Assembly: GCF_024808255.1 (NCBI RefSeq)
Contig: NZ_JANTYS010000017.1
Span: 62,001-126,000 of the forward strand
DNA from: Mucilaginibacter dorajii
GTDB lineage: Bacteria; Bacteroidota; Bacteroidia; Sphingobacteriales; Sphingobacteriaceae
DNA length: 64,000 nt
Reading direction: 5' to 3'
In this document: piece after piece, positions 1,375 through 33,743 of the stretch
Layout of the letters: each line of letters opens with the position of its first letter
Numbering within the stretch: position 1 is the first letter of the stretch
Notes under the pieces: model-generated
Database searches by the model: none
Seen by the model: only the letters and a program-made list of their open reading frames with translations
Told to the model about the DNA's origin: nothing
Translations under genes and position numbers: made by a program

Positions 1375-1728
1375 CTACATCTTTAAACTCAAAGGATTGG
1401 GGTAATTATCGCTTTGGTCTTCGGCTACATTATCAAGGCATTTAAAGTCTTTTTCAATAAGCAGGTACATCTGGCTGTTGTTGTTTTCATAGCCTACCCT
1501 ATCTGTGCTTGTCCACTCAATGGCCATAGCAGCAGGCATATACATGGTGATAGTATTATCATTAAATTCTGCCGTTAAAACGTTGGTTTTTGAACGTTGC
1601 AGTGCGTATTTAAATACCTGCGCACCAAAACAGCTGGTTTCTTCCAGGTAGCCGTCCCTGTCAAAGTTTTCCACATCGGTTTTTGTTAAGCGATAGCGTA
1701 ATGAATTGCCTTTGATCCTGATTTTCAT
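1375..1728 (-). CDS. Small uncharacterised protein next to cobA
   Basis: This is a 117-residue soluble protein with no signal peptide or membrane segment. It starts MKIRIKGNSLRYRLTKTDVE and contains FGAQVFKYALQR and YLLIEKDFKCLD. I believe it belongs to a small conserved family of unknown function in Bacteroidota, the one I recall as DUF7009; this is from memory and unchecked. It lies 8 bases downstream of cobA on the same strand, so the two are probably co-transcribed, with cobA first. That hints at a link to siroheme or nitrite metabolism, but nothing in the sequence defines an activity. A conserved C-terminal stretch rich in Asp, Asn and Pro follows LDNVAEDQ. Confidence 0.7.
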   Translation of the reverse strand: MKIRIKGNSLRYRLTKTDVENFDRDGYLEETSCFGAQVFKYALQRSKTNVLTAEFNDNTITMYMPAAMAIEWTSTDRVGYENNNSQMYLLIEKDFKCLDNVAEDQSDNYPNPLSLKM

Positions 1729-2465: not shown

Positions 2466-2752
2466 ATTTTTAAAATTAACGTCAAAAAATCAAGTTATGA
2501 GTCATTTTATTTTAGTGATTTTATAAAAATGACAAAATCAATAACATTTAAACATTAAAATAATGATATAAATTATATTAATAACACTAATTTATGAAAT
2601 AAAACACCAATAAACATGATTTATTTAATATAAAACTAAAATTAAATTTTTATTTGATGTTTTTTTGAGTTATAATTGTGATATAAATGAAATCAGGGTC
2701 GCATTTGATTCATTTTAGTTTGAAATTGCTTTAACACTTAAAAAATTCCGAC
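2466..2752. other. AT-rich divergent control region between cobA and nirB
   Basis: This 287-base gap is very AT-rich and has no gene. It holds a dyad with 8-base arms, GTCATTTT at 2501-2508 and AAAATGAC at 2526-2533, near the cobA side. On the nirB side lies the hairpin-plus-block leader described separately. I found no convincing promoter of the TTTG/TAnnTTTG type for either gene, although several half matches exist. Confidence 0.55.
2685..2736 (+). promoter_or_regulatory. nirB leader: hairpin with GGTCGCAT loop plus conserved GCTTTAACA block
   Basis: Positions 2685-2696 (AAATGAAATCAG) pair with 2705-2715 through about 11 base pairs with one bulged A and a closing G-T wobble, leaving the 8-base loop GGTCGCAT at 2697-2704. 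Twelve bases after the hairpin comes GCTTTAACA (2728-2736), and the nirB start follows 16 bases later. The outer-membrane channel gene at 6825 has the same loop on a different stem, then the same block, in the same order. Conserved loop and changed stem point to an RNA element; what reads it is unknown. Confidence 0.6.
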
Positions 2753-5248
2753 ATGTCAAAACCAACCATCATTGTTGTTGGCAACGGTATGGTAGGTTAC
2801 AAGTTTTGCGAAAAACTTTTAGCCCGATCATCACAGTTCCAAATAATTGTTTTTGGCGAAGAGCCCCGTCACGCTTATGACAGGGTACATCTTAGCGAGT
2901 ATTTTAACGGCAAAACAGCCGACGATCTATCGCTTTCCACATTATCGTGGTATGCTGATAACGACATCGCGCTACACCTTGACGACCCTATCCAGGAAAT
3001 AAATCGCGGCGAAAAAACCATCCACTCCTTAAAAGGCATTACCCTTAAATACGACTACCTGGTTTTAGCCACCGGCTCATCGGCTTTTGTGCCCGATATT
3101 CCGGGGATTGAAAAAGAAGGCGTATTTGTATACCGCACCATTGAAGACCTGGAATTGATAAAAGCCTGCGCCGCCAATGCAAAATGCGGCGCGGTAATGG
3201 GCGGCGGCCTGCTTGGCCTGGAGGCCGCCAAAGCTTTAATAGATTTGGGCATTACAGAAACCCATGTAATTGAGTTTGCACCACGACTGATGCCGCGGCA
3301 AATAGATTCGGCAGGGAGCAGCATGCTGCAAATGAAACTCAGTCAGCTTGGTTTACATATCCATTTAAATAAAAGCACCGCGGCCATTGTTGGCGATAAA
3401 AAGATTAGCTCATTAAAATTCAATGACGATAGCCTGCTGACAGTTGATATGCTGGTAATATCTGCCGGCATCCGCCCGCGCGATGAACTGGCCAAACTGG
3501 CCGGCCTGCACGTAGGCACCCGCGGCGGCATTATGGTGAACGAAAAAATGCAAACCAGCGATGAGCACATTTACGCCATTGGTGAATGTGCTTTATACGA
3601 GGGAATGATATATGGTTTGATTGCGCCCGGTTATGAGATGGCTGATGTAGCAGCCGCTCATTTAACCGCGGCCGATAAAGGTTTTTACGGGTACGATATG
3701 AGCACCAAGCTAAAGCTCATTGGGGTTGATGTAGCCAGCTTTGGCGACGCGTTTATTACCGAGCCCGATTGCCGCACCATTTTATTTGAAGACACCCACA
3801 AAGGCATCTACAAACGCATTAACATTACCAATGACGGAAAAAACCTGTTAGGCGGTATTTTAATTGGTGATGCAGAAGCTTATAATATGCTACTGCAAAC
3901 CGTTAATAATAAAATTGTACTTCCGCCCGATCCTGAAGATCTGATCTTAGGGTCAAGAGGCGGCGAGGCAAGCGCCGGCGCGGGTGTAATGAGTTTGCCA
4001 GATGACGCGCTCATCTGCTCATGTGAGGCGGTTACCAAGGGGGCTATTTGCTCGGCGGTGAACGATGGTGGCGTAACCAACGTCGATGGCATGAAAAAAT
4101 GCACTAAGGCCGGTACGGGTTGTGGCGGTTGCGTGCCGTTGGTGAAGGATTTGATTGCCGGCACTATGAAGGCAAATGGCCAATATGTTAAAAATGTTAT
4201 CTGCGAACATTTTGATTACTCGCGCCAGGAGTTGTTTGACCTGGTAAAAATAGGCGGCTTAAAAAACTACGATCTGGTACTTGATCATTATGGCAAAGGC
4301 GATGGTTGCGAAGTTTGCAAGCCGGTTGTTGCCAGCATCCTATCCAGCTTATGGAATGATGTTATTGTAAAACAGGAGGTGATACAGGATAGCAACGATC
4401 GCTTTTTGGCCAATATTCAAAAAGGCGGCACCTATTCGGTAGTGCCACGTATTCCCGGGGGCGAGATTACGCCCGACAAGCTCATTGTAATTGGGCAGGT
4501 GGCCAAACGCTACGGCCTATATACCAAAATAACCGGCGGACAACGTATTGATATGTTTGGTGCGCATCTAAGCGATCTGCCTTTAATTTGGGAAGAGCTT
4601 ATTGATGCCGGCTTTGAAAGTGGCCATGCCTACGGCAAAGCGTTACGTACCGTAAAAAGTTGCGTAGGCAGCACCTGGTGCAGGTTTGGCTTACATGATA
4701 GCGTAACATTTGCCATTGAGATAGAAGACAGATACAAAGGCATCCGCGCCCCGCACAAAATAAAAGGCGGTGTTAGCGGCTGTGTACGCGAATGCGCCGA
4801 AGCGCAATCAAAAGACTTTGGCATTATAGCCACAGAAAAAGGCTGGAATTTATATGTATGCGGTAATGGCGGCTCCAAACCACAACACGCCCAGCTATTG
4901 GCTACAGATATTGACAAAGAAACACTGGTAAAATACCTGGATAGGTTCCTGATGTTTTATATTAAAACCGCCGATCAGCTAACCCGCACCGCAACCTGGC
5001 TCAACAAACTGGATGGCGGCATGAGCTACCTTAAAAACGTAATTGTAAACGATAGCCTGGGCCTGGGCGAACAACTGGAGGAAGAAATGCAAACACTGGT
5101 AAACACCTACCACTGCGAGTGGAAAGAGGCGGTAAACAACCCGGCCATGCGCAAGCGTTTTGCCCACTTCATAAACGCCCCTGAAGAAAAAGACCCTACC
5201 GCACGGTTTGAGCCAATGCGCGAGCAGGTGAAGGCCAAAGAGTGGTAG
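2753..5248 (+). CDS. nirB: NAD(P)H nitrite reductase, large subunit
   Basis: This is the cytoplasmic six-electron reduction of nitrite to ammonium. The 831 residues show, in order, an FAD/NAD(P)H oxidoreductase (VVGNGMVGYKF at the start, VMGGGLLGLEAAKAL near residue 145), a BFD-like [2Fe-2S] motif (LICSCEAV to GTGCGGC), a second BFD-like segment (GDGCEVCKP), and the nitrite/sulfite reductase ferredoxin and haem domains. The siroheme-[4Fe-4S] cysteines are intact: C637 and C643 (CVGSTWC), C677 and C681 (CVREC). Length and order match NirB of assimilatory systems. nirD follows after 91 bases, with a stable hairpin between them. It is probably controlled by its structured leader and a nitrate- or redox-responsive regulator. 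Confidence 0.96.
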   Translation: MSKPTIIVVGNGMVGYKFCEKLLARSSQFQIIVFGEEPRHAYDRVHLSEYFNGKTADDLSLSTLSWYADNDIALHLDDPIQEINRGEKTIHSLKGITLKYDYLVLATGSSAFVPDIPGIEKEGVFVYRTIEDLELIKACAANAKCGAVMGGGLLGLEAAKALIDLGITETHVIEFAPRLMPRQIDSAGSSMLQMKLSQLGLHIHLNKSTAAIVGDKKISSLKFNDDSLLTVDMLVISAGIRPRDELAKLAGLHVGTRGGIMVNEKMQTSDEHIYAIGECALYEGMIYGLIAPGYEMADVAAAHLTAADKGFYGYDMSTKLKLIGVDVASFGDAFITEPDCRTILFEDTHKGIYKRINITNDGKNLLGGILIGDAEAYNMLLQTVNNKIVLPPDPEDLILGSRGGEASAGAGVMSLPDDALICSCEAVTKGAICSAVNDGGVTNVDGMKKCTKAGTGCGGCVPLVKDLIAGTMKANGQYVKNVICEHFDYSRQELFDLVKIGGLKNYDLVLDHYGKGDGCEVCKPVVASILSSLWNDVIVKQEVIQDSNDRFLANIQKGGTYSVVPRIPGGEITPDKLIVIGQVAKRYGLYTKITGGQRIDMFGAHLSDLPLIWEELIDAGFESGHAYGKALRTVKSCVGSTWCRFGLHDSVTFAIEIEDRYKGIRAPHKIKGGVSGCVRECAEAQSKDFGIIATEKGWNLYVCGNGGSKPQHAQLLATDIDKETLVKYLDRFLMFYIKTADQLTRTATWLNKLDGGMSYLKNVIVNDSLGLGEQLEEEMQTLVNTYHCEWKEAVNNPAMRKRFAHFINAPEEKDPTARFEPMREQVKAKEW

Positions 5249-5290
5249 GTTTTAAATTCAAAAGTTAAAAATCAAAATTCAAAAAAGGAA

Positions 5291-5322
5291 CATGCGAGCT
5301 ATCTTAGAGAGGTGCTCGCATG
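5291..5322 (+). promoter_or_regulatory. Intercistronic hairpin between nirB and nirD
   Basis: CATGCGAGC (5291-5299) pairs perfectly with GCTCGCATG (5314-5322) around a 14-base loop containing AGAGAGGT. There is no U-tract after it, so it is not a classical terminator. It may stabilise the nirB 3' end or modulate nirD expression. The dyad is seen directly; the role is inference. Confidence 0.5.
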
Positions 5323-5339
5323 CTTAAATCAATTACAAC

Positions 5340-5690
5340 ATGGAAACAGTTATAGCAACAGAATGGATCATGGCATGTTATGTTGATGACGTACCTGAAA
5401 ACGGAGGCTCATGTATTAAACATGGCGATGAACAAATAGCGATATTTAATTTTGCCCGCCGTAATGAGTGGTATGCAACTCAAAACCTTTGTCCGCATAA
5501 ACAGCAAATGGCAATTTCTCGTGGGATGATAGGCAGCACCGGCGAAAATTGCGAACCAAAGGTAGCATGCCCTTTTCACAAAAAAGCATTCTCTTTACTT
5601 ACCGGTGAGTGTATTGGCGAAGAAGAACTGACCATCAAAACCTACCCCGTAAAAATAACCGACGGGATGGTGTTTATCGGTATTGCTTAA
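5340..5690 (+). CDS. nirD: Nitrite reductase small subunit, Rieske-type
   Basis: This 116-residue partner of NirB has the Rieske-like fold. Unlike E. coli NirD, which as I recall lacks cluster ligands, this protein keeps the pattern CPH (C51, H53) and CPFH (C77, H80), so it could carry a [2Fe-2S] Rieske cluster and pass electrons. The surrounding motifs RNEWYATQNLCPH, ISRGMIG and ACPFHKKAFSLLTGECI fit the family. It is transcribed in the same direction as nirB and ends 4 bases inside the 3' end of the convergent Crp/Fnr gene. Confidence 0.92.
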   Translation: METVIATEWIMACYVDDVPENGGSCIKHGDEQIAIFNFARRNEWYATQNLCPHKQQMAISRGMIGSTGENCEPKVACPFHKKAFSLLTGECIGEEELTIKTYPVKITDGMVFIGIA

Positions 5691-6385
5691 TTAAGACTGG
5701 CTTCCTGGGCAAGTGCAAATAATTTATCATTATCAACAATGCATATCTTTTTTCCATTGGTGGTAACTATATTTTCCTGTAAAAGCTCATTCACTACCCT
5801 AAAAACAGTTTCGTAGGTTGCACCGGCAAACGACGCAAGATCCTGCCGGGTAAGTTCAATATCTATATGACCTTCCTGGTTAATACCAAACTGATCTTTT
5901 AAGGCAAGCAAAGCATGAGCGACCCTGCCTTTTACCGGCATATGCGCCAGGTTGCGCATCTTATTTTCTGCTTCATGAAGCTCATCGGCAAAAAACAACA
6001 TGAGCTGATAAGTGAATTGAGGATTAACTTTTAGTGTAGCCTCAAAAAACTCCATATCTATATAGCATATAATGCCGGCCTCTAAGGCGGTGGCCGAAAT
6101 GGGATAATGCGTTGCATGCTTGCCCAATACCCGGTGACCAAATATAGCGCCCTTGTTTGCAAAACGAATGATCAACTCTTTATCCGCTCCCCATTTTTTG
6201 TGAACCTTTACGTTACCCTCATACACAAAGTAAATTCCCGTAACCGGATCGCCTTCGCTGAAAATAACCTGCCCTTTTTTAACGGAAAAGTTTTTTTTGT
6301 TGGCAGCAACGGCCGGCAACCACTCTTTAATGCAGCTTTTGCATAAAAAACAAGTCTGATTATCGCACTGAGCGTTTTTTTTCAT
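5687..6385 (-). CDS. Crp/Fnr-family regulator with N-terminal cysteine cluster
   Basis: The 232 residues comprise a cyclic-nucleotide-type beta-roll (about 30-150: FSVKKGQVIFSEGDPVTGIY, YEGNVKVHK) and a C-terminal winged helix (RQDLASFAGATYETVFRVVN) that binds DNA. The first 18 residues contain C7, C12, C15 and C18 (CDNQTC, FLCKSC), a spacing resembling the Fnr iron-sulfur region but tighter, so an Fe-S or redox/NO-sensing role is plausible. It lies inside the nitrate/nitrite cluster, convergent with nirD and divergent from the channel gene, and is the obvious candidate regulator. The effector is unproven. Confidence 0.88.
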   Translation of the reverse strand: MKKNAQCDNQTCFLCKSCIKEWLPAVAANKKNFSVKKGQVIFSEGDPVTGIYFVYEGNVKVHKKWGADKELIIRFANKGAIFGHRVLGKHATHYPISATALEAGIICYIDMEFFEATLKVNPQFTYQLMLFFADELHEAENKMRNLAHMPVKGRVAHALLALKDQFGINQEGHIDIELTRQDLASFAGATYETVFRVVNELLQENIVTTNGKKICIVDNDKLFALAQEASLN

Positions 6386-6404
6386 TTTTTAGATCCAGAT
6401 TCTC

Positions 6405-6451
6405 TGATTTTTTAATAAAATCAAAGATATAAATTATATTTTTTACTCAAT
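6405..6451 (-). promoter_or_regulatory. Probable promoter and operator dyad of the Crp/Fnr gene
   Basis: Read on the reverse strand, ATTG, 18 bases and TATCTTTG (forward 6422-6429) match the Bacteroidota -33/-7 consensus, placing the start about 30 bases before the ATG at 6385. A 19-base dyad TGATTTT-N5-AAAATCA (6405-6423) overlaps the expected start site and resembles an Fnr-type TGAT/ATCA site with wider spacing. That suggests autoregulation. Confidence 0.5.
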
Positions 6452-6608
6452 TGAGGGAATTTTTCTATTTACAATTCAATTGTTTTTGAATTTAAGCCGG
6501 CTTTATTACAAAATATTCATTTTAAATCAAGTAAAAAATTATCAAAAACATATTTTGGTAATTTTTATAGATGTAAAATTGAGTTTTTGTTAAAAAATAG
6601 AGATTTAC

Positions 6609-6679
6609 ATGATTTTAATCATAAAAATTAACTTTAAAACTACATTATTTGCACTTAATCATTAAATAAGTTATATTTA
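6609..6679 (+). promoter_or_regulatory. Probable promoter of the channel/transporter genes with Fnr-like site
   Basis: TTTG at 6648-6651, a 20-base spacer and TATATTTA at 6672-6679 resemble the TTTG-N20-TAnnTTTG promoter and predict a start near 6686. That leaves a leader of about 139 bases before the ATG at 6825. Upstream, ATGATTTTAATCAT (6609-6622) is a perfect dyad of the TGAT-N4-ATCA type recognised by Fnr-like proteins, centred about 70 bases before the predicted start. Confidence 0.5.
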
Positions 6680-6746
6680 TGGTAATTAAATGAATAATTA
6701 AATTAAAAAGATACAGCCTATGATGAAAATCAAAAAATTATAAAAA

Positions 6747-6806
6747 AAGCCCTGCCGGGAGGTCGCATTCCCAGACAGGGTTAAACAGTTTTTAATCGCT
6801 TTAACA
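6747..6806 (+). promoter_or_regulatory. Channel-gene leader: GC-rich hairpin with GGTCGCAT loop plus GCTTTAACA block
   Basis: The stem AAGCCCTG...GGGA (6747-6760) pairs with TCCC...CAGGGTT (6769-6782), with a small internal loop, and closes the 8-base loop GGTCGCAT (6761-6768). Fifteen bases later comes GCTTTAACA (6798-6806), then the ATG at 6825. The loop, the block and their order match the nirB leader, although the stem there is AT-rich. In the block, 18 of 21 bases agree between the two leaders (AAT-y-GCTTTAACA to TAAAAA). Confidence 0.6.
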
Positions 6807-6824
6807 AATAAAAAACCAACTCAA

Positions 6825-8366
6825 ATGTACAAAAATGTATGTAATCAATACACTATTGGCAAAATTCTATTAATTATATCATGTTTTGTTTCCTACAATG
6901 CTTCGGCACAGCTATCTGTAACGGGTCAGCTAAAAACCAGGGGCGAATTACGTGATGGTTATGGAACTTTAGAACCAATAGGTAACAAAAATGCCGCCTT
7001 TGTATCGCAACGAACGCGACTTACCTTCAATTACAAAAGCAGCAGGCTTATTTTCCAGGCAGCTGTACAGGATGTAAGGCTTTGGGGCCAGGATGCATCA
7101 ACTATCACCATTAATGACGGCAACCGTTTAGGTTTACATGAAGCCTGGGCCGAACTCATCTTATCAAACAAAAAAGATACTTCTTTCAAATCATCACCAG
7201 TAGATTATTTTGCTATTAAAGCCGGAAGGCAGGAAATAAGTTACGACGATGAACGCCTGCTGGGCGCAACCGACTGGATTCAGCAAGGCCGCCGTCATGA
7301 TGCTATTGTACTTAAACTAATTCAATCTGGCTGGCAGGTTGATCTTGGTTTCGCGTTTAACCAAAGTTCAGATGCCATTAATTATAATGGTACGTACTAT
7401 ACGCCTGCAAACGTACCTGCCACGATAAAAGATAGCAAAGGCAACCTGGCTAATACCCCGGCAGGCTTTATCCCACTTATTAACGCCGCCGGCATCAGTT
7501 CAAAAACTGGCAGCCCTGCATTTTTAAACCCACCCGGCACCAACGGTTTAACTCAAAACTACAAATCGCTACAGTATTTATACTTTGCTAAAAAGATCAA
7601 TAAAACAAAGATATCCGGCCTGTTCCTAGCCGATCAATTTGGCAAGTATAAACTCGACTCGGTAAAAAATGTATCGGGGACCGATGAGGGTTATATTTAT
7701 GGCCGTCATTTTAACCAACCCGGCGTAAATACCAGGTATACAACGGGATTATTGGTAAACCCAACCTTTGGCGATAAAGATCAATGGGGTATAAACGGTG
7801 GCTTTTACTACCAGGGCGGCCATGATAAAGACGGGCTTGACCTAAGCGCCTATACTTATACCGCGGCCTTATTATATAAAGGTAAAAACTGGGGCTACAC
7901 AGCAGGCTGGGATTACCTTTCAGGAAATGACGCGCTATCAACCTCAAAAACCAATCACCGGTTTGACCCTTTGTACGGCACCCCACACAAGTTTTGGGGC
8001 CTAATGGATTATTTTTATGCAAGCACCGGATCGCCAACGGGTGGCCTGAGCAATCCATACCTTAAAATTAAATATCTATCAGATAACAAACGCTTTAGCA
8101 CCGAATTGAGCAACCATTATTTTCTATTGGCTAAAGATCAAAAAGGGGCAGATGGGCAAGCTATTGACAAATACCTGGGTACCGAGTTTGATTTAACCAA
8201 CAACTATAAGCTTAACAAGTTCACCATGGTTGAGTTGGGCTTATCATACATGGCGGCAACGCACAGCATGGAATATGCCAAAGGTTTAACACTGGGAGCC
8301 AACAAGCTGCACCCCATGTGGGCATACCTTCAATTGAACATTAAACCCGAATTTTTGAATAAGTAA
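6825..8366 (+). CDS. Outer-membrane beta-barrel channel of the alginate-export/OprD type
   Basis: A signal peptide (hydrophobic stretch KILLIISCFVSYNASAQ) is followed by a 16- to 18-strand-like barrel of alternating aromatic and glycine-rich segments: QLKTRGELRDGYG, AAFVSQRTRLTFNY, FAIKAGRQEISYDDERLLGA, DWIQQGRRHDAI, YGTPHKFWGLMDYFY and ELGLSYMA. These match the alginate export family, used in Bacteroidota for diverse small solutes. Next to a nitrate/nitrite transporter and reductase, it most likely lets nitrate or nitrite cross the outer membrane; the substrate is inferred from context. Its leader carries the shared hairpin element. The ATG at 6825 is the only start that gives a full signal peptide. 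Confidence 0.85.
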   Translation: MYKNVCNQYTIGKILLIISCFVSYNASAQLSVTGQLKTRGELRDGYGTLEPIGNKNAAFVSQRTRLTFNYKSSRLIFQAAVQDVRLWGQDASTITINDGNRLGLHEAWAELILSNKKDTSFKSSPVDYFAIKAGRQEISYDDERLLGATDWIQQGRRHDAIVLKLIQSGWQVDLGFAFNQSSDAINYNGTYYTPANVPATIKDSKGNLANTPAGFIPLINAAGISSKTGSPAFLNPPGTNGLTQNYKSLQYLYFAKKINKTKISGLFLADQFGKYKLDSVKNVSGTDEGYIYGRHFNQPGVNTRYTTGLLVNPTFGDKDQWGINGGFYYQGGHDKDGLDLSAYTYTAALLYKGKNWGYTAGWDYLSGNDALSTSKTNHRFDPLYGTPHKFWGLMDYFYASTGSPTGGLSNPYLKIKYLSDNKRFSTELSNHYFLLAKDQKGADGQAIDKYLGTEFDLTNNYKLNKFTMVELGLSYMAATHSMEYAKGLTLGANKLHPMWAYLQLNIKPEFLNK

Positions 8367-13427: not shown

Positions 13428-14870
13428 ATGGAAAAGAAGCAGGTTATCAAAATAAACCTTCCCGGCGGCGTAGCTTCTGCCGGTGATTTTTATGAGATGC
13501 TCATCATAGCGCAAAACGCGGGTGCCGGGCAAATCCGTTTTGGCAACAGGCAGCAGCTTTATTTTGAAATTGATGCCGGGCAACTGGAAGATCTGGAATT
13601 TGACATGTTAGGTGCCGGCATTGATCATGAGATTAACCAGAATGTTTACCCCAACATCACCAGTTCATATATAGCCGATGGTATTTTCAACCAGGAAAAC
13701 TGGCTTAAAGAAGGTGTTTATAAAGATATCTTCGACCTGTTTGCCTATCAGCCCGAACTAAAAATAAACCTGGTTGACAGCAACCAAACCTTTGCTCCTT
13801 TTTTTACGGGTAATCTTAACTATATATCTTCGCCGGTAAGTAATTACTGGTACCAGTATATCCGGTTCCCTAAAACCAATATCCTGTATTGCTGGCCGGT
13901 ACTGGTTTACTCGGATGATATCCCGACTATGAGCAAAGCTATACAACAGGTGATATTGGCCAACAAGTCGTTGTTTTATGATCAGCCTGAAGTTAATACC
14001 GATTTGCTTTACCAACTGGTTACGGCTGGCAATCAATTTGTAATACAGGAAATAGATCAGCCCCTGGCAATACCCGATTTTCAGCTACCTTATTACGAGG
14101 GCTTTAACAAACAAGGCAATAAATACTGGCTGGGTATTTACCGCCGCAACGAGCTTTTTGATATCGAATTTTTAAAAGATATTTGTAACCTGTGTATGCA
14201 AACCAGGGTAGGGCAGCTATACATCAGCCCATGGAAATCGCTACTTGTTAAAAACATCGAAGCTAAACACCGCCCATTGTGGGGTAACCTGCTCAATAAA
14301 TACCGCATCAACATCAGGCATGCCTCAAACGAACTTAACTGGCAGGTTGAAGACCTCTGCAGCCAGTGCCTTGAACTTAAGCAGCAACTGGTGCGTGAGT
14401 TTGAGGAGGCCGATTTGCGCACATACCGTTTAAGCTTCGCCATCAAGCGGTCGCCAAAATCGGGCATTTACGGTTCTGTTATGATCCGCGAACGTAAACC
14501 CAATGAGTTTGAAATTATCCATACCCGCGACTTTAATCACAACACCCGCGAATTTGTAGTTTATAAACAAGGTGTCGCCAAGGCCGATTTAAGCCGACAC
14601 CTGATAACCCTGTGCGATATGTTTTATGAGCAGCAAAGCAATAATCAACTCCCTTTAAATACTGCTAAAAGCAAAGAAGAAACCAGCGTATCTACCCCAA
14701 AAACGGTGCACCAATGCAAAAGCTGCTTCACCATTTATGATGAGCTTTATGGCGATGAATTCAATGAAATAGCCCCCGGAATATCGTTCAGTAATTTGGC
14801 CGTTTATGAATGTCCTACCTGTGGCGCTGCAAAGGAAAATTTTGATGAACTCATATTTTCGGCGGTTTAA
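13428..14870 (+). CDS. Degenerate siroheme-reductase-like protein fused to C-terminal rubredoxin
   Basis: The 480 residues begin with a nitrite/sulfite reductase ferredoxin-like half domain (INLPGGVASAGDFYEML, GAGQIRFGNRQQLYFEI), repeated around 190-270. At the place where family members have GCPNSCG, this protein reads KRSPKSG (residues 340-346), without the ligand cysteines, so siroheme/[4Fe-4S] binding there is unlikely. The C-terminus is a rubredoxin, with C430 and C433 (CKSC) and C462 and C465 (CPTC), that binds one iron. It starts 3 bases after the nitrate reductase and is surely co-transcribed. I infer an electron carrier or assembly partner for nitrate or nitrite reduction; the function is not established. 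Confidence 0.82.
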   Translation: MEKKQVIKINLPGGVASAGDFYEMLIIAQNAGAGQIRFGNRQQLYFEIDAGQLEDLEFDMLGAGIDHEINQNVYPNITSSYIADGIFNQENWLKEGVYKDIFDLFAYQPELKINLVDSNQTFAPFFTGNLNYISSPVSNYWYQYIRFPKTNILYCWPVLVYSDDIPTMSKAIQQVILANKSLFYDQPEVNTDLLYQLVTAGNQFVIQEIDQPLAIPDFQLPYYEGFNKQGNKYWLGIYRRNELFDIEFLKDICNLCMQTRVGQLYISPWKSLLVKNIEAKHRPLWGNLLNKYRINIRHASNELNWQVEDLCSQCLELKQQLVREFEEADLRTYRLSFAIKRSPKSGIYGSVMIRERKPNEFEIIHTRDFNHNTREFVVYKQGVAKADLSRHLITLCDMFYEQQSNNQLPLNTAKSKEETSVSTPKTVHQCKSCFTIYDELYGDEFNEIAPGISFSNLAVYECPTCGAAKENFDELIFSAV

Positions 14871-31949: not shown

Positions 31950-33743
31950 TTACAACCAGTTTTTAAGCTCGATGGTAATTAAAGTACCGTTATTTTCGCG
32001 CCCTTTATGCAGCAATATAGTGGTATTTTTGTAGATGCTATTGAGCAATTGAATCCTTTTTTCGCATAGCTTAATGCCCATACCAGTAGTGGCGGCGGCT
32101 TCAAACCCATTTCCGTTATCCCAAACAGTTAACAACAGGGTGTTATCATTTTTAACAACATCTACCCTGATCATACCAGCATCCTTCATGGCAGATATGC
32201 CGTGTTTAACCGCGTTTTCTACAAAGGGCTGTAACAGCATGGCCGGTATTTCTACCTGCTGATCAACAGCAGCAGCATTGGTATTTATGCTGAAAGCAAA
32301 ACCAAAGCGCATTTGTTCCATCTCCAGGTAATCCTTTAGCAGGTCCGTTTCGTGCTGAATAGAGGTAAGCTCCTTATTCCCTTCATCCAGTACATTGCGG
32401 GTAATGCGGGCAAAACGCACCAGGTATTTGTTGGCTTTTTCCATCTCGTTTTTATTTACCAGGTTTTGGATGCCGGCCAACGCGTTAAATATAAAATGCG
32501 GATTCAACTGTGCCCTTACCGAACCTAATTGCAGGTTAATGATCTCCTTACTCTGCGCCTGCTGCAACAAGATATGCTTTTGACGGCTGCGGTAATAAAC
32601 TATTACCAGTGCGGCTATTAATAACACACTTGCCACTATGATTACAAGCCAGGTTACTGATACCACGTAGCGCCTATCAGCCGGAGGTAAAACCGTAAAA
32701 CTAATGCTTGTAGCCAGGTTTCTTAACAAATAAATGGGCTCCCCCCCATGGCGGTGTATTTTAGGTGTAAAGGTAATCTGGTATTTACCGGGAGTTTTCC
32801 AAAATTCTTTGTAGAGTTCAAAGCTACTGTTGCTTTCGCCAAGATTAATACTGTCTTTAAGTCCGGTCGCATTCCTTTTCAGTGAAACTTTATAGTTGTA
32901 TATGCGTTGGCCGTTGTCAATAACAAACGTCATCTTTTGCAGGGAATCTGCAAACCTTAACCTCAGATCCTTTGAGGAGATCGACTTAATGAAGTCTAAA
33001 GCCGGTGGAATAATAGGCACTTCCTTTCCCTTCACCAAGGCGGTATACTTTTCCATCGGGTAAAATGGTCTTGAAACCGCTCCGTTATCTGCAATAGGAA
33101 AGCCACGGCTCCAATAATCAACCGTTGCCGAAACCTTTGCAGCTACAACTTTTCGCCAGTCGATAGTTACTGCATCCTGTTCATTATACTTTTGTGTATT
33201 ATAAATCTCCACGCGTAGTATTTGCTCTGGCTGATAGGCAAATTTACCCAGCCAGGCATACTGATATTTCCCATCAGCAGTTGTTTTAAATTGCGATGGC
33301 TTCGTCCAGCCCACCAATTCGCGCTCGTTATTTTGAATAACCCTGTACAAATAATTGTTAGCATTATGGGCGTTTACCTCTTGCGCTATAAACTCCACAG
33401 ATGCTTTGCCATCAATTAATATGCTGGTAAAATCCTGGTCTGGTATTTTGTCTCTCAATCCCTCATATAATTCGCTTTTTTTATCAAAACGGACGCCCAG
33501 GTTCTGCACTCCCATATCATTTAACAAAAAGTGTTCGTGGCTTAACTGCTTAATGCGTTCAAAACGGATAAAGTAGCCTCTCATTTCGGGTGTTAAAGGC
33601 GTTTTTGTGGTGTCTATTGCTTTCTCCTTAAAAATAACAATATGAGGATACAAGTGTCTCCATTGTCCGGTTTGAGCCTGCGCCGTCATATAGGATAATA
33701 TATACAAAAGGGCTATAAAAGCTGATCTGATAAAGGTTGTCAT
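31950..33743 (-). CDS. LytS-type sensor histidine kinase with large extracytoplasmic part
   Basis: A signal sequence (TTFIRSAFIALLYILSYMTA) leads to a periplasmic region of about 330 residues that holds beta-rich segments (KYQYAWLGKFAYQPEQILRV, YQITFTPKIHRHGG). A membrane helix follows (VSVTWLVIIVASVLLIAALV), then a coiled coil, then the histidine kinase core VRAQLNPHFIFNALAGIQ with the phospho-His, and PAMLLQPFVENAVKHG and LLTVWDNGNGF of the ATPase domain. At 597 residues it is much longer than the kinase at 26119. It senses something in the periplasm, unknown which, and passes it to the adjacent regulator. It reads away from a 466-base gap containing the candidate leader. Confidence 0.9.
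   Translation of the reverse strand: MTTFIRSAFIALLYILSYMTAQAQTGQWRHLYPHIVIFKEKAIDTTKTPLTPEMRGYFIRFERIKQLSHEHFLLNDMGVQNLGVRFDKKSELYEGLRDKIPDQDFTSILIDGKASVEFIAQEVNAHNANNYLYRVIQNNERELVGWTKPSQFKTTADGKYQYAWLGKFAYQPEQILRVEIYNTQKYNEQDAVTIDWRKVVAAKVSATVDYWSRGFPIADNGAVSRPFYPMEKYTALVKGKEVPIIPPALDFIKSISSKDLRLRFADSLQKMTFVIDNGQRIYNYKVSLKRNATGLKDSINLGESNSSFELYKEFWKTPGKYQITFTPKIHRHGGEPIYLLRNLATSISFTVLPPADRRYVVSVTWLVIIVASVLLIAALVIVYYRSRQKHILLQQAQSKEIINLQLGSVRAQLNPHFIFNALAGIQNLVNKNEMEKANKYLVRFARITRNVLDEGNKELTSIQHETDLLKDYLEMEQMRFGFAFSINTNAAAVDQQVEIPAMLLQPFVENAVKHGISAMKDAGMIRVDVVKNDNTLLLTVWDNGNGFEAAATTGMGIKLCEKRIQLLNSIYKNTTILLHKGRENNGTLITIELKNWL

Follow-up and report, generated by a model that had tools for sequence, protein, structure and literature searches.

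A putative cis-acting RNA element in the nirB and porin leaders of the Mucilaginibacter assimilatory nitrate/nitrite cluster

Introduction

In Proteobacteria, ANTAR systems offer a known case of nitrate assimilation being controlled at the RNA level. ANTAR targets consist of two hairpins, whose hexaloops carry A1 and G4, together with an overlapping terminator (PMC3369931). The DNA analyzed here, a stretch of 64,000 nucleotides from Mucilaginibacter dorajii (hereafter the window), contains two leaders that resemble the ANTAR target leaders (NasR/nasF, NasT, EutV) in that both are nitrate-assimilation leader RNAs with invariant loop letters on exchangeable stems. The Mucilaginibacter element nevertheless differs from them in having one hairpin, a G1 loop, no overlapping terminator, and a single-stranded 9-mer near the AUG. 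Three features of ANTAR targets accordingly fail: two tandem small hairpins are not found, with only the first hairpin being supported by the exchange of stem arms between genomes (see below); the loop, either GUCGCA, if a G-U pair closes it, or GGUCGC, has G at position 1 in all leaders instead of A1 with G4; and no terminator-like site, let alone one overlapping a second hairpin, lies between hairpin and start codon. A preliminary description of this DNA had already considered the element unlike the ANTAR/NasR target, and this comparison bears it out. The ANTAR domain itself (PF03861) has no match in the M. dorajii genome, and none in any control genome either.

Other described systems share some features with this element. 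The rrn boxB-boxA and lambda nut sites also combine a hairpin with a short conserved single-stranded box, and the CUUUAACA core of the 9-mer (GCUUUAACA in the mRNA) is one that we take to be shared with E. coli rrn boxA. In contrast to these sites, the element stands at a fixed distance before start codons and in two genes only. In addition, rrn leaders of the genus carry GTTCTTTTAAGA as boxA, and not GCTTTAACA, so that a likeness between the 9-mer and E. coli boxA carries no weight, and the reading of the 9-mer as a boxA was rejected. Protein-binding translational operators, such as the phage coat-protein operator, ribosomal-protein leaders, or CsrA/RsmA sites, likewise have a short hairpin with a fixed loop on a free stem near the start codon; we know of none that matches the GGUCGC loop and its partner 9-mer. 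Lastly, Rfam 15 holds other short structured leaders of metabolic operons, but no family reached its gathering threshold in a scan of the window, and none matched positions 2500-6900 even at E values up to 5, in agreement with the earlier view that this does not look like a molybdenum-cofactor riboswitch. No description of the element for Bacteroidota was found in Rfam 15 or in the open literature searched and, as judged from these two sources, it is undescribed.

Two leaders of one cluster share a hairpin and a 9-mer

The window carries an assimilatory nitrate/nitrite cluster, in the order DUF7009 and cobA (minus strand), nirB, nirD, a Crp/FNR-type regulator gene (minus strand), a porin gene, a NarK-type transporter gene, and genes for a fusion of a NasC-type nitrate reductase with a NirB-like part and for a rubredoxin-containing protein. 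The closest match of its NirB is that of M. flavus (97%). The features discussed below are the following:

1375-1728, minus strand: DUF7009 gene, behind cobA
2671-2678, plus strand: TATAATTG, TAnnTTTG-like sequence a short distance (a few nt) 5' of the hairpin, putative Bacteroidetes-type -7 box of nirB
2685-2715, plus strand: nirB leader hairpin with AT-rich stem, from sequence reading and folding; the stem covaries across the genus
2697-2702, plus strand: loop hexamer GGTCGC of nirB (52 of 53 nirB leaders; GGTCGT in the remaining one)
2728-2736, plus strand: single-stranded 9-mer GCTTTAACA of nirB (52 of 53 nirB leaders), with no conserved pairing around it
2753-5248, plus strand: nirB, large subunit of assimilatory nitrite reductase (NCBIfam TIGR02374)
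6720-6743, plus strand: possible micro-ORF MMKIKKL, 5' of the porin hairpin
6749-6782, plus strand: porin leader hairpin with GC-rich stem, from sequence reading, folding and pair counts in 21 porin leaders
6761-6766, plus strand: loop hexamer GGTCGC of the porin gene (41 of 41 porin leaders)
6798-6806, plus strand: single-stranded 9-mer GCTTTAACA of the porin gene (41 of 41 porin leaders)
6825-8366, plus strand: outer-membrane channel (porin) of the Alginate_exp family (Pfam PF13372), first gene of the porin-narK-nasC run

Direct reading of the sequence gives the same order in both leaders: a hairpin whose loop has GGTCGC on its 5' side, then GCTTTAACA, then the start codon, with 16 nt separating the 9-mer from the nirB ATG at 2753 and 18 nt separating it from the porin ATG at 6825. 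Folding of the two hairpins reproduces the structures drawn for them. The preliminary description had proposed an exact loop of eight bases, GGTCGCAT, common to both hairpins. This 8-mer is indeed present in both (2697-2704 and 6761-6768), but the invariant core is limited to the hexamer GGTCGC and, in the porin hairpin, the G and T at the two ends of this 8-mer may form a G-U pair. Similarly, the proposed block of 21 bases does agree at 18 of 21 positions between 2725-2745 and 6795-6815, but only the 9-mer within it is invariant. That an 8-mer alone would occur about twice in the window by chance was a sound estimate: GGTCGCAT is found three times for 1.8 expected, the third copy, at 32865, being unrelated, and GCTTTAACA alone has 5 occurrences. 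The combination of loop and 9-mer is found at exactly 2 sites in the 7.16 Mb of the M. dorajii genome, for zero sites with a reversed control pattern.

Loop and 9-mer letters are kept across leaders

The anatomy of the element was tallied in 53 nirB leaders and 41 porin leaders (94 in all). The 9-mer reads GCTTTAACA in 93 of the 94 and GCTTAAACA in the remaining one; one GCTTTAACG variant was met among leaders read beyond this set. The base 3' of the hexamer is A in 92 of 94 leaders, T and G also being found; the hexamer sits close behind the 5' arm, while the 3' side of the loop is variable. Spacing is confined to narrow ranges, with 24-32 nt (3' arm and linker) between hexamer and 9-mer, and 12-17 nt (nirB) or 16-20 nt (porin) between the end of the 9-mer and the ATG. 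In two loci (L013, the G180 porin leader, and L047), an extra GGTCGCAAA is present upstream of the porin hairpin, near the presumed transcript start and with no clear stem.

Among 236 leaders with open upstream gaps (460 kb of the M. dorajii genome), only 3 have GCTTTAACA at 60 nt or less from the start, two of which are those of nirB and the porin gene; a third GCTTTAACA in this genome was seen directly behind an apparent intrinsic terminator. A role for the 9-mer as a general translation signal was rejected on this near-confinement to nirB and the porin gene. Pairing of loop or 9-mer with 16S rRNA was rejected as well, as none of four 16S rRNA sequences examined contains a complement of GGTCGC or of GCTTTAACA.

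Stems covary while the loop hexamer is nearly constant

The pairing of the two stem arms was evaluated in all leaders by arm swapping, with the hexamer forced to be unpaired. The nirB arms of a given genome fold together with a mean energy of -7.8 kcal/mol (sd 2.3), versus -4.1 when arms are swapped between genomes and -3.6 when nirB arms are combined with porin arms. Swapping has no effect within the porin set (-17.4 versus -17.1 kcal/mol) because porin stems resemble one another. Pair counts in 21 porin leaders nonetheless give 97.6% of paired cells and 8 double-change cells for 1.2 expected. For nirB, 22 in-register leaders (A4) give 95.7% of paired cells, a figure that leans towards the structure since this subset was picked for common geometry, and 12 double-change cells, with 0 of 500 shuffles as high; sliding the partner by one column lowers pairing to about 35% in these leaders. 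A set of 38 nirB leaders (A1) behaves in the same way, and paired cells, double-change cells, and covariation score all exceed 500 of 500 shuffles for nirB (A1 and A4) and for the 21 porin leaders. RNAalifold found nothing on the sequence-based nirB alignment because MAFFT sets arms of different geometry out of register, a problem that was met by the in-register subset and by arm swapping.

Since own arms outperform swapped ones in nirB and shuffles are beaten in both leaders, complementarity is kept while stem letters change, and loop letters are kept while the stem changes. The preliminary proposal of a constant loop and spacing on a changed stem thus holds for the leaders of the genus, where loop letters are near-invariant, stems covary, and 9-mer and spacing are maintained. 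A covarying stem accompanied by conserved unpaired letters is also what is generally seen in cis-regulatory leader RNAs. A second hairpin, whose loop would hold the 9-mer, seemed plausible on inspection of several leaders but was rejected by arm swapping, own arms scoring above the swapped mean in only 12 of 53 nirB and 9 of 41 porin leaders; the 9-mer is for this reason treated as single-stranded. No conserved alternative structure masking the start codon was found in the leaders, so that no switch by refolding is visible. Conserved long-range pairing of loop or block was not found either, and by inspection the two are not complementary.

The element is found in Mucilaginibacter

A search of 150 Mucilaginibacter genomes for GGTCGCA followed by GCTTTAACA within 8-38 nt returned, for most of those that bear nirB, a pair of sites separated by about 4 kb, while the reversed control pattern gave only a handful of matches; most other single matches correspond to one recurring coding-like sequence. 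NirB is present in 78 of the 150 genomes, 3 of which end before the leader. When leaders were read singly or found by covariance model, with one-letter variants allowed, the element was present before nirB in 74 of the 75 readable leaders, and again before the porin gene of the same cluster. The sole exception (G141) has a divergent NirB of 70% identity. Both the pattern search and the model searches give two copies in each genome, one linked to nirB and one to the porin gene, and related genomes retain the element before genes that belong to a single pathway.

When loci were retrieved by NirB similarity, those of Mucilaginibacter carry the element, with the exception of M. arboris (L054), and it is absent from those of Pedobacter, Arcticibacter, Hymenobacter, Pontibacter, and Chitinophaga. 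In 400 genomes of the order, the nirB-leader model gave no convincing match beyond Mucilaginibacter; a match in another genus of the family, before a thioesterase-like gene (G048; E 0.0066, one genome of 400), was rejected as being at chance level. The comparison with leaders of relatives that the preliminary description had called for thus yields, for nirB and porin genes, an invariant loop, a covarying stem, and a conserved 9-mer and spacing, and the loss of loop and block that it had named as refuting occurs outside the genus but not within it. In the NirB tree, carriers form one side of a single branch, which is weakly supported. The element is judged to have a single origin in one clade, so that the many copies of either site did not arise independently of one another, and to be restricted to Mucilaginibacter as far as found. 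Two nirB leaders from sister clades contain possible degenerate versions, both with chance-level scores: GCTTTAACA with a hairpin that has CGCA in its loop in Desertivirga (L063, 7917-7991), and a AAUCGCAU loop in Arcticibacter (L067, 2739-2803).

The element is not tied to a promoter

In 48 of 52 nirB leaders, a TAnn(A/T)TTG box is located 17-19 nt before the hexamer GGTCGC and, from the known consensus, would be the nirB promoter; the nirB hairpin would therefore begin at about +1, the presumed 5' end of the mRNA. The same box is present in only 1 of 41 porin leaders. In seven genomes, the porin hexamer lies in the gap between nirD and the porin gene, 34, 53, 64, 76, 79, 119, and 128 nt behind the nirD stop, and in the 34-nt case no promoter could fit between the two genes. 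With the porin element inside an operon and the nirB element at about +1, the element is not tied to a promoter, and its occurrence in two such settings argues for an action on the RNA adjoining the start codon.

Other signals are present around the porin leader. An FNR/CRP-type palindrome, ATGATTTTAATCAT, is located upstream at 6609-6622, suggesting that the cluster is probably also under DNA-level control; similar palindromes are seen in many members of the genus that have the divergent Crp/FNR-type gene. On the minus strand, the GC-rich porin hairpin and the directly preceding A run, conserved in porin leaders, read as an intrinsic terminator (6742-6783). A short ORF, in most cases of 4-10 codons and often starting GCCTATG, begins about 40-50 nt before the hexamer in 38 of 41 porin leaders. 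Its sequence varies, the three leaders that lack it have a very short nirD-porin gap, and it may represent either a leader peptide or chance.

Possible mode of action and alternatives

Taken together, the near-invariant loop and 9-mer, the covarying stem, the fixed place before the AUG, the two copies, and the independence from promoter distance point, with high confidence at the sequence level, to a real cis-acting RNA element of one bacterial genus. How it functions is less certain: the explanation that we favor, at a probability of roughly one half, is that this element beside the start codon acts on translation or mRNA stability via a trans-acting factor. Located in the leaders of two transcription or translation units of the cluster, it presents the hexamer GGUCGC at the 5' side of the apical loop of a free-sequence stem, followed 24-32 nt later by unpaired GCUUUAACA and, 12-20 nt further on, by the AUG. 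The factor, most likely an RNA-binding protein, would read loop and 9-mer together on the mRNA and set ribosome access to the start codon, or mRNA stability, in response to the nitrate, nitrogen, or oxygen state. Nitrite reductase and nitrate uptake and reduction would in this way be switched together, beneath transcriptional control by the Crp/FNR-type regulator of the cluster. The 9-mer lies within or just upstream of the footprint of an initiating 30S subunit, which would make steric control the simplest form of this mechanism.

Several alternatives to a trans-acting factor can be weighed against the same observations. A constitutive leader, whose hairpin and 9-mer would enhance the translation of highly expressed genes or shield their mRNA with no regulator involved, is consistent with a position adjoining the start codon and with a hairpin at the presumed 5' end of the nirB mRNA; it is unlikely, given that the element is present in only two genes per genome, that the 9-mer is no feature of the 236 other leaders, that a merely stabilizing hairpin has no need of an invariant loop, and that the 16S rRNA sequences examined offer no complement to hexamer or 9-mer. 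Slightly less probable still is pairing of a small RNA with loop and 9-mer. A conserved antisense RNA would also select for invariant unpaired letters on a variable stem, but no complementary stretch with both sites was found besides the elements themselves, on both strands and in linear order, in the M. dorajii genome and the 150 genomes of the genus; it also counts against this possibility that Bacteroidetes are not known to have the common RNA chaperones. A very small riboswitch, with loop and 9-mer forming the ligand pocket, would account for a helix flanked by conserved unpaired letters before genes of one pathway, yet it is a doubtful candidate in view of a pairing core reduced to a single short helix, the failure to find conserved long-range pairing of loop or block, and the lack of a matching Rfam family.

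Transcription-level readings fare worse. Processive antitermination of the rrn/nut type, in which the hairpin would be a boxB and the 9-mer a boxA for NusB-S10, draws on the hairpin-then-boxA order of rrn leaders and on the CUUUAACA letters presumably shared with E. coli; the different boxA-like sequence of the genus and an AUG spacing that would not be expected of a nut site make it improbable. Very little weight can be given to antitermination by an ANTAR protein of the NasR/NasT kind: the pathway is the same, a conserved loop sits on a variable stem, and the possible hexaloop GUCGCA has G at position 4, but this loop starts with G and not A, and the hairpin is single and has no terminator between it and the start. 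Equally slight is the chance that a transcription factor reads the element as a DNA operator and that the hairpin is incidental; the palindrome upstream of the porin gene would be in line with such control, but the free change of stem letters with complementarity kept, and the presence of the same element at about +1 in nirB and within an operon before the porin gene, speak against it.

Returning to the trans-acting factor, a more tentative extension is that the element founds a new regulatory RNA family with a dedicated RNA-binding reader, which would link the reduction of nitrite with the entry and reduction of nitrate at the level of translation or mRNA. If true, such a family would match ANTAR control in function while sharing none of its parts, and would give access to post-transcriptional nitrogen control in a phylum with few regulatory RNAs mapped. 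As the element is compact, with two sites of near-invariant letters and exchangeable stems, and belongs to a culturable genus, a 60-nt RNA bait could capture its reader.

Neighboring genes

The DUF7009 gene is the sole gene of the cluster whose presence tracks the element: nearly every locus with the hairpin has it next to nirB, and no locus lacking the hairpin does. Elsewhere in Bacteroidota, it is often found between fdhD and the gene of an FdhF-type molybdoenzyme, a location that suggests an accessory role in molybdenum-cofactor metabolism. Its predicted model has no recognizable RNA-binding fold and no clear fold match, the best one (Z 5.9, to Suppressor of Fused) not being meaningful. DUF7009 as the factor reading the element was rejected on the basis of this absence of a fold match, the single origin of the element, the link to fdhD and formate dehydrogenase, and one genome (L060/G226) in which both hairpins are kept with DUF7009 absent beside nirB.

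At the other end of the cluster, the protein encoded at 13428-14870 combines an N-terminal nitrite/sulfite-reductase ferredoxin-like half domain, below cut-off, with a C-terminal rubredoxin domain, and proteins of this type stand behind nasC in many nitrate clusters of Bacteroidota.
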